Of a DNA stretch of 45,431 nucleotides, positions 28,572 to 44,098 are shown piece by piece. Location of the stretch: assembly GCA_002686595.1 (NCBI GenBank), contig NYXZ01000074.1, positions 1 to 45,431 on the forward strand, read 5' to 3'. Position 1 is the first letter of the stretch; every line of letters begins with the position of its first letter. The stretch is from Planctomycetota bacterium. Its GTDB lineage: Bacteria > Planctomycetota > UBA1135 > GCA-002686595. Below the pieces are notes generated by a model, which saw nothing but the letters and a program-made list of their open reading frames with translations, was not told where the DNA came from and searched no databases. The position numbers and the translations under genes were made by a program.

Positions 28572-28575
28572 CTAG

Positions 28576-28675
28576 GAGCCCATTGACATACTCCCTACTA
28601 CGGCTTCGCCATCAACGTCGCTGCGGCGTCAGCGTCGATGACTTCGCCTCGCGACGGGGCTTTTTCAACGGACTC
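28576..28675. mobile_element. MITE-like element, copy 1
   Basis: A 100-bp element flanked on both sides by CTAG (28572-28575 and 28676-28679), as expected from a 4-base target duplication. The ends are imperfect inverted repeats: GAGCCCATTGACATAC at the left and, on the other strand, GAGTCCGTTGAAAAAG at the right. No coding frame is present. The interior shares blocks with copy 2 (42292-42415), including GTCGCGAGGCG and CTGACGCCGC. The right CTAG supplies the TAG stop of the 28676-30004 gene. It is a non-autonomous element whose transposase source is not in this window; target CTAG and end style suggest an IS5-like origin, which is inference. Confidence 0.65.
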
Positions 28676-30004
28676 CTAGAAGACCCGCGAGACGCCCGGC
28701 ACCGCCACCGGGTAGCGGCCGTCCGGCCCCGGCAGCACCTGCGGATTGGCATCCCAGGCGTAGGCCGTTGGCGACAAATCCACCTCGGAGTTCAGGGCCT
28801 CTTCCCATTTCACGATCTTGCCCGAGTAGCTGGCCATGCGCCCCATGATCGCCGTCAGCGTGGCCTCGGCTCCGTTCTGCGCCTCGTTGTAGGGCGTGTC
28901 CGTGCGGATCGCCCGGAAGAGGTCATCGTGTTCCCGTTGATAGGGGTCGGGCCGCTCAGCTTCAAAGGCCCATTGCCCCTGGGCCGTTTGCATGGAGGCG
29001 CCGCCGATGTGGCTCGTGCCCAAGGTCCCGTGGGCGTGCTCGGAAACCTGGGTCCAGGTGCCGGGCATGTGGCGGCATTGGCTGAGCATCTTGGTGCCAC
29101 CGGCGTAGGTGTACTCAACCATGTGATGATCGAAGATCTCGCCGTGCTCCGCTCCCCGCCGCACCAGGCGCCCGCCCTGCCCCTGGGCCGTCGCCGGCGG
29201 GCCACCCATGATCCAGTTGCCCACATCCAAGTTGTGAATGTGCTGTTCCACAATGTGATCGCCGCAGAGCCAGTTGAAGTAGTACCAGTTGCGCATCTGA
29301 TACTGCATCTCGCTCATGTCCGCTCGACGGGGCTTGACCCATACGCCGGCACTGTTCCAGTAAACGCGCAGTAGCTGAAGTTGGCCCAACTGCCCCTCTC
29401 GAATGCGGCGCACGGTCTCTTGATATCCCACATCATGGTGGCGCTGCAGGCCGACGCCGACCTTCAGGTTGCGCGTCTTGGCCGCTTGGGCGGCGGCCAA
29501 AACGCGGCGAATGCCCGGTCCGTCAACGGCCAGGGGCTTCTCCATGAAGACATGCTTGCCCTGGGCGATGGCGTGTTCGAAGTGAATGGGGCGGAAGCCC
29601 GGGGGAGTGGCCAGGATGACCAGGTCGATGTCCTGTTCCATGGCCCGCTGATAGGCGTCAAAGCCCACGAAACAGTTTTCATCCGGGACGCGCACCGAAT
29701 CCGTGTGACGCTCCATGAGCGCCCGGCGAGAACCGGCCAGGCGATCTGCGAAGGCGTCGGCCATGGCCACCAGTTCCACCGGACCCTCAGTGGAAAGGGC
29801 CTGATTGGCCGCCCCGGTGCCGCGCCCGCCGCAGCCGACGAGGGCGATGCGCAATGTGTCCATGGAGCGGGGCGCGGCCAGTTCCGCCGCCAGGACGCCG
29901 GTGACATTCTTGCAGCCCGGGGTCAGGGCGGCGGCCCCTCCCGCGATGGCGGCGCTGGATCCGACTAGGAATGAACGACGACTGGAGATGCGCTGGCGAT
30001 TCAT
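28676..30004 (-). CDS. Exported Gfo/Idh/MocA family oxidoreductase
   Basis: The 442-residue protein begins with a Tat signal, I-S-S-R-R-S-F-L-V-G then an Ala-rich segment, possibly ending in a lipobox-like L-T-P-G-C. The Rossmann motif is V-G-C-G-G-R-G and the signature M-E-K-P-L-A is intact, so this copy keeps the catalytic lysine that the 2218-3456 protein lacks. The C-terminal domain has V-E-Q-H-I-H-N-L-D-V-G-N-W, the pattern seen in many planctomycetal members. The substrate is probably a sugar or glycoside, in the periplasm. Its stop TAG (28676-28678) lies in the CTAG flank of MITE-like copy 1. The ATG at 30004 has no Shine-Dalgarno sequence. Confidence 0.9.
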   Translation of the reverse strand: MNRQRISSRRSFLVGSSAAIAGGAAALTPGCKNVTGVLAAELAAPRSMDTLRIALVGCGGRGTGAANQALSTEGPVELVAMADAFADRLAGSRRALMERHTDSVRVPDENCFVGFDAYQRAMEQDIDLVILATPPGFRPIHFEHAIAQGKHVFMEKPLAVDGPGIRRVLAAAQAAKTRNLKVGVGLQRHHDVGYQETVRRIREGQLGQLQLLRVYWNSAGVWVKPRRADMSEMQYQMRNWYYFNWLCGDHIVEQHIHNLDVGNWIMGGPPATAQGQGGRLVRRGAEHGEIFDHHMVEYTYAGGTKMLSQCRHMPGTWTQVSEHAHGTLGTSHIGGASMQTAQGQWAFEAERPDPYQREHDDLFRAIRTDTPYNEAQNGAEATLTAIMGRMASYSGKIVKWEEALNSEVDLSPTAYAWDANPQVLPGPDGRYPVAVPGVSRVF

Positions 30005-41556: not shown

Positions 41557-42288
41557 ATGCTACGTCCCATTCTGATCCTGCTGCCGCTGCTGGCCTGTTC
41601 CAGTCCCGGCCCGACACCTCTCCCGACTGCTGGCCAAGCCGACATCTTCGATGCCTTCCGGCAGGCACTCGGCCAGTCTTCGTTTCACGGCCCAACCCAA
41701 CGACTGATCTTTCACGCCGTCCTCCGCGGCCTTTTTGAGGACGGCGTCCGAGATGATGTGATCGGACGGTTGACGCGCACCGACCAAGCCACGGGCATGC
41801 CCTATTCATTTGTCTACGCCTGTCCCGTATGCATGCCCGCCTTCAATGCCCTGCGCGTCTACGCCCAACGACCGGAGTTCTACGGCGACAAACAGGGCGC
41901 GACGACCTTCGGCCCAGGCCTGTCCGACTAACTGCGCCAACAACTTCTGTCAGCAGACGGCTCCACCCATCGCGGCGCCGTAAACCAACTCATCGGCGGA
42001 TGGCTGCGTGAGCACATCGACAGCATGCGCCTGACGGATACGGAACTCGCAGCCCTGGACAAGGAGTTGGAACGCCTCAGCGAACGTGGCCTGGCCCAAC
42101 TACGGTCCTATCTCCACGGTCTCCCAGACACAATCCTCAACAGCCCGGACCTGCCCGCCTCAACGGTCGAGTACTTCTCTGCCGCCGCCGAGGTGTACGC
42201 CGGCTGGGAGACCTGCCCTAGCTGCGACGGCGCCAGCGACGCCTGCACTCCCCAAGCCCCCGCCATGCTGGGTAGCTCCGAGCGCTGA
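41557..42288 (+). pseudogene. Broken lipoprotein gene with an in-frame TAA
   Basis: A single reading frame from ATG 41557 (M-L-R-P-I-L-I-L-L-P-L-L-A-C-S-S, lipobox L-L-A-C) is interrupted by TAA at 41929-41931 after G-P-G-L-S-D. The same frame then runs on to TGA at 42286-42288, about 119 more codons (L-R-Q-Q-L-L-S... C-P-S-C-D-G-A-S-D-A-C). Both halves share composition and together would make about 243 residues. The first half has Y-A-C-P-V-C-M-P-A-F (Cys89, Cys92), the second another C-P-S-C. It is likely a nonsense-mutated gene of an unnamed conserved lipoprotein family. UAA is not decoded as selenocysteine or pyrrolysine. A sequencing error is possible. Confidence 0.75.
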
Positions 42289-42291
42289 CGG

Positions 42292-42415
42292 GAGTCCGTT
42301 GAAAAAGTCTCGTCGCGAGGCGCAGCCAGCGGCGGCGAGCCTGACGCCGCCCCGGCGTCGATGGCACTAGCGGCGACGACGGCAGCGCCGTAGCAGGGAG
42401 TTCGTCAACGGGCTC
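42292..42415. mobile_element. MITE-like element, copy 2
   Basis: A 124-bp relative of copy 1, in opposite orientation to its neighbouring minus-strand gene. The left end is GAGTCCGTTGAAAAAG. The right end, read on the other strand, is GAGCCCGTTGACGAAC. CTAG flanks only the right side (42416-42419), where it supplies the TAG stop of ftcD; the left flank is ACGG, so the target duplication is lost or was never made. The element starts three bases after the stop of the broken lipoprotein gene. The interior is GC-rich with no coding frame and is 24 bases longer than copy 1. Confidence 0.65.
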
Positions 42416-44098
42416 CTAGAGCTTGGCCCGCACAGCATCCAAGATGCGCGCCTCCCGCTCCCGGGCCTTGTCTTCCAGTTCCCGCGCTCGCTCGCAGAAG
42501 TCCTTGGCCGCTTCCTTGTCAGTCAGGTCCTTGGCGTTGATGGCCACATTCAAGCCGGCACCGAGCACCGCCGAGCGCGCACAGAGAGCGCCGACGCCAG
42601 CATCAGAAGCGGAAGCCGCCAGTCCGTCCTGTGCCATGGCGGCGATGACTTCCATGGATTCCAACGCCACGGCCATCACCTCCAGGGGCACCTCGATGGC
42701 TCCCGTGGTTGCGGCCTGGATAGCCTGCGCGCGCGCCGCCTGTTCCTCTGCGCTGCCCTTGGGCAGACCGAAGGCATCCATGATGCGATTGAAGGCCGCC
42801 GTATCTTCGTCGACGAGGGCCAACAGTCGCCCGTGACAGGCCTTGCCCCGTTCCGCCCAATCGCTGAACTCCGACCAACGCTCGTCCCAACCGCGCTTGT
42901 GGCTGGACAGGTTGGCGACCATCGTTCCCAAGGCTGCCCCCAGCGCTCCCAGGGCCGCCGCCACCGAGCCCCCGCCCGGTGCCACGGATTCGGAGGCGGT
43001 CTCGTGCACGAATCCCTCTAGGGTGTTGTCCACCAAGCGCCGCTGCCCGCCGGCGGCCAGCACGTACTCGATGATCTTCTTGTCGGGATCAAAAGGGGCC
43101 AACTCGTCGAGCCCCATGGACTTGACCGCGATCTTGATCAACTCCCCATCGCTCACACCCAGGGAACGCTGCTGCTTGGTCAAGTAATACCGGCCCGCAT
43201 CGAGCATGGCCTCCAGGGGAATCAGGCCCACCAACTCCGAGCCGGTGACGCGCACGCCGCGGGCCCGCGCCCGTTCACAGCACTCATCGAAGGCCGCGTG
43301 GGCTGAAGTCACTGAGATGTTCGTCAGATTCATGGAGATCTGCGCCACGCCGTACTCCTCGATAAACCAGCCGATGCCCTTCACACACTTGAGCGAACCG
43401 GGCAGCCAGACCGCATCCCCCTGGGCATCACGCACGATCTCGCCGGTCAGGGGATTGCCCTCGCGTTTGATGCGGCCCTTCTCCCGCACATCAAAGGCGA
43501 TGGCGTTGGCCCGCCGCGTCGAGGTCGTGTTGAGGTTTACATTGTAGGCCACCAAGAAATCACGGGCGCTGACAGCCGTGGCACCAGCGCGCGCATTAAA
43601 AACAGAGGGACCGAAATCCGGGCCCCAAGCCGGGTCCGCCAGCTTTTCCTCCAAGCCCTCGTATTCGCCGGCGCGCACCTTGGCCAGATTGCGCCGCCCT
43701 TCCTCGCGCGCCGCGTGCTCGTAGCAGTAAACGGTCAAGCCGACCTCCTCCCCCAAGCGCCGCGCCAGTTCATGGGCATGGGCCACGGTCTCCTCCATGG
43801 TGACGCCGCGAATCGGCACCAGGGGGCAGACATCCATGGCGCCGAAGCGCGGGTGCTCGCCGCTGTGCTTGGTCATGTCAATCAACTCCGCCGCCTTGGC
43901 GCCGGCCCGCACCGCCGCCTCGATGACCGCCTGCGGTTCACCGGCGATGGTGACCACGGTGCGATTGGTGGCTCGCCCGGGATCGACATCCAAGAGACGC
44001 ACCCCATCCACGGACTCCGCCGCGTCAGTGATCTGGCGGATAATGGCCATGTCGCGGCCTTCGCTGAAATTCGGTACACACTCGATAAGTCGATCCAT
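42416..44098 (-). CDS. ftcD: Bifunctional glutamate formimidoyltransferase / formimidoyl-THF cyclodeaminase
   Basis: The 560-residue protein joins the two histidine-degradation folate enzymes. Residues about 1-300 are the formiminotransferase (E-C-V-P-N-F-S-E-G; D-M-T-K-H-S-G-E-H-P-R-F-G, with His82 at the position of the known catalytic histidine). Residues about 365-560 are the cyclodeaminase (A-P-G-G-G-S-V-A-A-A-L-G-A-L-G-A-A-L-G and D-E-D-T-A-A-F-N). They transfer the formimino group from formiminoglutamate to tetrahydrofolate and release ammonia. ATG at 44098 (M-D-R-L-I-E-C-V-P-N) is the natural start. Its TAG stop lies in CTAG abutting MITE-like copy 2. No other hut genes are in view. 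Confidence 0.95.
   Translation of the reverse strand: MDRLIECVPNFSEGRDMAIIRQITDAAESVDGVRLLDVDPGRATNRTVVTIAGEPQAVIEAAVRAGAKAAELIDMTKHSGEHPRFGAMDVCPLVPIRGVTMEETVAHAHELARRLGEEVGLTVYCYEHAAREEGRRNLAKVRAGEYEGLEEKLADPAWGPDFGPSVFNARAGATAVSARDFLVAYNVNLNTTSTRRANAIAFDVREKGRIKREGNPLTGEIVRDAQGDAVWLPGSLKCVKGIGWFIEEYGVAQISMNLTNISVTSAHAAFDECCERARARGVRVTGSELVGLIPLEAMLDAGRYYLTKQQRSLGVSDGELIKIAVKSMGLDELAPFDPDKKIIEYVLAAGGQRRLVDNTLEGFVHETASESVAPGGGSVAAALGALGAALGTMVANLSSHKRGWDERWSEFSDWAERGKACHGRLLALVDEDTAAFNRIMDAFGLPKGSAEEQAARAQAIQAATTGAIEVPLEVMAVALESMEVIAAMAQDGLAASASDAGVGALCARSAVLGAGLNVAINAKDLTDKEAAKDFCERARELEDKAREREARILDAVRAKL

Follow-up and report, generated by a model that had tools for sequence, protein, structure and literature searches.

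A family of CTAG-flanked miniature elements at the 3′ ends of genes in a planctomycete genome

The short repeat described here, present in roughly 100 copies in a planctomycete MAG (3.38 Mb in 150 contigs, 86% complete), is a MITE, and it very probably inserts at CTAG, survives on the 3′ side of genes and is moved by a DUF772/IS1182-like transposase. Its copies are short, non-coding and numerous, and they have terminal inverted repeats, a target site duplication and ends in common with an autonomous element. An earlier note on this DNA had proposed a MITE-like element, a view borne out by a multicopy non-coding family with CTAGGAGYCCRTTGA ends and by full-length relatives in other genomes.

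One copy lies in the window, that is, the whole stretch of 45,431 nucleotides that was analysed (Table 1). Its letters run CTAGGAGCCCATTGAC ... TTCAACGGACTCCTAG, with two CTAG tetranucleotides enclosing 100 bp, and both ends match exactly the degenerate pattern of a 15-bp imperfect terminal inverted repeat, CTAGGAGYCCRTTGA. The minus strand forms a single long hairpin (-54.7 kcal/mol, z = -6.5). The sequence and the pattern match confirm what the earlier note had described, namely a 100-bp non-coding element with CTAG on both sides and imperfect inverted ends, the right-hand CTAG containing the TAG stop of an exported oxidoreductase gene. The same note had placed a relative of the element at the stop of ftcD; this second copy is real, with a decayed left outer end. 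In the case of the oxidoreductase, 11 orthologs terminate at the same point or within 3 residues of it. A free CTAG stands at the ortholog stop in four relatives: in L062 and L071 it falls at the identical residue, and in L064 and L068 it follows in register after alignments that stop 3 and 2 residues short.

Table 1. Positions in the window of the two family copies and of the genes that end in their boundary CTAGs
Feature	Position	Strand	Basis
MITE copy, 100 bp non-coding plus CTAG at each end	28572..28679		Sequence, own-genome matches, hairpin
Left terminal inverted repeat CTAGGAGCCCATTGA	28572..28586	+	Exact match to CTAGGAGYCCRTTGA; CTAG is the presumed target duplication
Right terminal inverted repeat CTAGGAGTCCGTTGA	28665..28679	-	Exact match to CTAGGAGYCCRTTGA
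CTAG giving the TAG stop of the Gfo/Idh/MocA oxidoreductase	28676..28679	-	Sequence; free CTAG at the orthologous stop in four relatives
Exported Gfo/Idh/MocA-family oxidoreductase, full length	28676..30004	-	Pfam PF01408/PF22725; C-terminus aligns with orthologs to the end
Second family copy, right end intact, left outer end decayed (ACGG for CTAG)	42288..42419		End pattern
CTAG giving the TAG stop of ftcD	42416..42419	-	L228 ortholog ends in a free CTAG
ftcD, glutamate formiminotransferase/cyclodeaminase	42416..44098	-	Pfam FTCD_N, FTCD, FTCD_C

Searching the host genome and its relatives, as the earlier note had proposed, showed that the family recurs far beyond chance. The window element has 65 blast matches in its own genome, where the end pattern is found 204 times at up to 2 mismatches (37 times for a reversed control pattern) and 138 times at 1 mismatch (4 for the controls). 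Element statistics were drawn from 322 kb fetched around these ends, not from the whole genome. Within it, 68 complete elements could be paired, ranging from 68 to 243 bp with length classes near 70, 114 and 179 bp; no coding capacity was seen in any of them, and some stand in tandem with one CTAG in common. Among 81 genomes of the host's family, a similar end at 1 mismatch is present in 61, many at control level, and the end is abundant in G000, G001, G012, G093 and G023. Across the phylum, a 19-base end pattern is present in 22 of 392 sampled genomes.

Several structural variants were also observed. Head-to-tail arrays (L013, L014, L025 and L027, on G000 contigs C74, C16, C132 and C4) have neighbours joined by one CTAG-like joint, often changed by 1-2 bases (CTCCTGGAG, CTCCAGGAG, CTCCTAGAGGAG), and a minimal form of 41 bp, CTAGGAGTCCGTTGAAAGGGAGTTCTTCAACGGGTCCCTAG, consists almost only of the two ends (L148, G000:C81:11199-11239). 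The sequence CTAGCAGYCCGTTGAAAAA has several copies in planctomycete genomes of other families (G137, G169, G258, G280, G337 and G400). The repeats lie no more than about 150 bp from the ends of many contigs, for example C53, C72, C74 and C76 among others in G001, and C4, C11, C15, C16 and C117 in G000; the elements probably fragment MAG assemblies.

Tabulating the four bases next to each complete copy, as the earlier note had advised, revealed CTAG on both sides in 37/68. Departures from this are mostly one-sided and look like mutation. A longer target duplication finds no clear extension at 5 or 6 bp (base matches in 18 and 17 of 37). CTAG thus behaves as the insertion target, with one copy left on each side, an outcome that is the same in sequence whether the full 4 bp or only the TA is duplicated.

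The boundary CTAG is very often a stop codon. By gene calls from a codon model for which the fetched stretches (83% coding) served as training set, it forms the TAG stop of a gene in 38 of the 68 complete copies (56%), one case being TTAG, and 5 of the 68 have a stop on both sides. Of 82 unoccupied non-coding CTAGs in those stretches, only 16 lie at stops (odds ratio 5.2, p = 3.6e-6). The association holds without strict masking of possible element remnants (background 40/144, p = 8e-5) and is robust to gene-score thresholds from 25 to 100. It was repeated in a second genome, G012, from a sister genus (15/29 elements at stops versus 7/32 free sites, p = 0.015). No excess was seen in G093, G064, G020, G050 and G023, with 4/20 of their few sampled copies at stops. 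None of the 68 complete copies lies inside a called gene, where most free CTAGs in the same DNA are found. When the flanks of each of the five double-stop sites are rejoined with only one CTAG between them, that palindrome stops both convergent genes.

Proteins that end at an element appear complete. The end points of orthologs of 14 such genes, in relatives without the element, differ in most cases by no more than a few residues, and free CTAGs stand at 15 of the 59 ortholog stops counted. From their recognisable C-termini, we take the 14 to include adenosylhomocysteinase-, glutamate dehydrogenase-, TypA- and IspH-like genes. For instance, 4 of 5 relatives of the adenosylhomocysteinase-like gene (C129) end in TACTAG with no element. 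All of these comparisons are cross-genus, with a DNA identity to the relatives of only about 70%, and none offers an empty site from the same species. In L210, where a syntenic empty site was sought for the convergent pair on C142, the orthologs do not form a neighbouring convergent pair. Judged from sequence, these proteins are intact, and empty sites occur in some cases. The proposal that an insertion duplicating a CTAG at a stop leaves the gene intact is therefore upheld by C-termini that coincide with those of orthologs or lie close to them, and some ortholog stops, across genera, do have an empty CTAG.

A likely source of the transposase was found in relatives, whose ends are often CTAGCAGYCCGTTGA, one base off the host ends (CTAGCAG versus CTAGGAG in the host). 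In G061, a 1497-bp element has CTAGCAGYCCGTTGA-type ends and encodes a 387-aa transposase; versions of 1484 and 1471 bp occur in G072 and G014, and a shortened one of 1221 bp in G020. The transposase matches DUF772 (PF05598, E = 4.5e-20, 71.9 bits against a cut-off of 23.1), with a weak DDE match. Its nearest model is that of the IS1182 family (NCBIfam NF033551), but the score of 164.4 bits is below the cut-off of 270, and we call the enzyme IS1182-like, a label short of established family membership. A DUF772 search of eight genomes carrying the ends (three at moderate counts) found none in the element's own genome, which is 86% complete, and no insertion sequence with CTAGGAG ends. The host does contain a transposase remnant (C47:12697-13023) with a degenerate end, CAGGCTGTTGAAAAAG, upstream. 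Thus, of the earlier suggestion that a transposase gene might share the terminal repeats, what stands is full-length elements of about 1.5 kb in sister genera with nearly the same ends; those ends are CTAGCAG rather than CTAGGAG, and the host has only a remnant. The shared ends suggest that an IS1182-like enzyme may mobilise the MITEs in trans.

Other observations concern these transposase genes. At L183 (G000:C47:12670-14120), a remnant made up of residues 1-60 and 205-255 forms an in-frame fusion with the 483-aa ORF that follows. At L122 (G014:C232), a broken copy of the insertion sequence, the transposase reading frame ends in the element's own boundary CTAG, as in IS481-family transposases of Leifsonia xyli, whose own stop lies inside a duplicated NCTAGN (PMC2516522). 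IS630-type DDE_3 and DDE_Tnp_1 genes were considered as movers and rejected; none of their three loci in the host genome has the family ends.

We propose the following mechanism. The element would be a DNA transposon of the non-autonomous type, dependent for its movement on a DUF772/IS1182-like DDE transposase that acts in trans and recognises ends of the form CTAG(G/C)AGYCCRTTGA. The enzyme would insert it at the palindrome CTAG and leave one copy per side, duplicating either 4 bp or the central TA. Where the CTAG spans a stop (C-TAG), the gene would retain its own complete stop, and two convergent genes with one common CTAG would each receive their own. Intragenic insertions would be lost, leaving survivors concentrated at gene 3′ ends, where most of the available CTAGs would be stops. 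In this scheme, the cause of the 3′ bias would be selection, and the exact duplication length may be either of the two.

The 3′ bias can be separated from the stops themselves, with the caveat that this split is exploratory, as the 3′ zone and its 50-bp limit were picked after the stop result was known. The zone, which comprises stops and positions no more than 50 bp from a gene 3′ end, takes in 57/68 elements but only 22/82 free non-coding CTAGs (p = 1.4e-12). Within this zone, the share at stops is the same for elements (38/57) as for free CTAGs (16/22; p = 0.79). Because this share equals background, no recognition of stop codons is required, and CTAG targeting together with the 3′ bias is enough to account for the association. 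The earlier idea of a safe-insertion preference at stop codons is accordingly retained as a strong enrichment, repeated in a second genome, and given up as a preference for stops as such.

The strongest competitor adds to CTAG targeting and selection an active preference of the transposition machinery for gene 3′ ends or stops, which might arise, for example, from transcription termination, from converging transcription or from a host factor. The concentration in the 3′ zone would fit this, as would the occupation of five common convergent stops. Copies with perfect inner repeats are at stops as frequently as the remaining copies (10/16), unlike what slow purging would leave, although this speaks only against slow purging, and a fast loss of harmful insertions yields the same picture. 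The background-level share at stops inside the 3′ zone counts against it, as does the lack of excess at stops in the small samples from five other genomes. On balance we regard such active targeting as unlikely, though deserving more weight than the other alternatives. Its bolder form, in which a transposase or host factor steers insertion to gene 3′ ends and, combined with CTAG targeting, makes a harmless-by-design element able to reach about 100 copies in a gene-dense genome, is slightly more doubtful still.

Selection might instead have kept the hairpins as transcription terminators or mRNA 3′ ends. The strong fold and 3′ location of the element are in keeping with such a role, and one terminator-like stem with a T run is present at 28646-28660. 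However, copies are evenly oriented relative to the gene (22 to 20), and almost no compensatory changes were seen (3/32 pairs and 0/27), with an unfavourable covariation term; a directional terminator or a conserved RNA role is therefore not supported. Rfam has no family near threshold, and we consider this explanation improbable.

More improbable again is that insertion creates the stops, with the element truncating genes and its own CTAG or a TGA serving as the new stop. Read in one frame, the CTAGGAGYCCRTTGA end does contain a TAG; read in another, it has a TGA at +15. At a few sides, the stop does lie 15 bp into the element. Truncation would be expected to make about one side in three stop at the boundary, but the frame test gave 43 boundary stops versus 8 further inside (p = 8e-14). 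Moreover, the C-termini match orthologs to the last residue or a few residues from it, and the terminal 25 codons are mostly coding by score, so that stop creation is already disfavoured. Least credible of all is the view of the elements as REPIN-like, with a Y1 (RAYT) transposase as their mover and CTAG as part of the repeat, for although the elements are palindromic, extragenic and close to gene ends, and GTAG-tagged REPs likewise supply TAG stops (PMC3733652), Y1_Tnp (PF01797) has no match in the host's own 86% complete genome, relatives with the same kind of ends encode a DDE-type DUF772 transposase, CTAG is found at some empty orthologous sites, and the outer tetranucleotide is CTAG with no GTAG tag at the repeat foot.

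Comparable cases have been reported. TnRErm46/ISRe46 of Rhodococcus equi likewise has CTAG as its target, and the genes it targets take their stops from its repeat; it differs in being a large autonomous resistance transposon with TGTTGCGGGTCATGACGTTG ends, not a MITE family, and the excerpted text of that report contains no genome-wide statistics (PMC6794481). MITEPsy1 of Pseudomonas syringae is closer in form, being 100 nt long with terminal repeats and a 4-nt duplication of CTAG or YTAA. Its repeats, GGAAGGTCTGAAAAAGCC, are unrelated, its proposed source is ISPsy2, and no stop association appears in the excerpts of that paper (PMC3189936). GTAG-tagged REPs, known in Planctomycetes too, are short palindromic sequences whose termini often give flanking ORFs a TAG stop, but they are 20-40 bp long, linked to Y1 RAYTs and end in GTAG rather than in a duplicated CTAG (PMC3733652). 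Given these precedents and the IS481 elements mentioned above, the kind of event is already known. Insertion that supplies a stop is therefore not peculiar to these elements; the present family is new, its statistics are unusually clear, and such a scale is rarely seen in the open-licence literature.

For annotators, these elements are a warning that the end of a gene in genomes of this kind may also be the border of an element, and that the repeats cause breaks in assemblies. When a palindromic target that contains a stop is duplicated, even convergent genes with a common stop both keep one. The family offers a large and clean natural data set on how a mobile element multiplies cheaply in a gene-dense genome.
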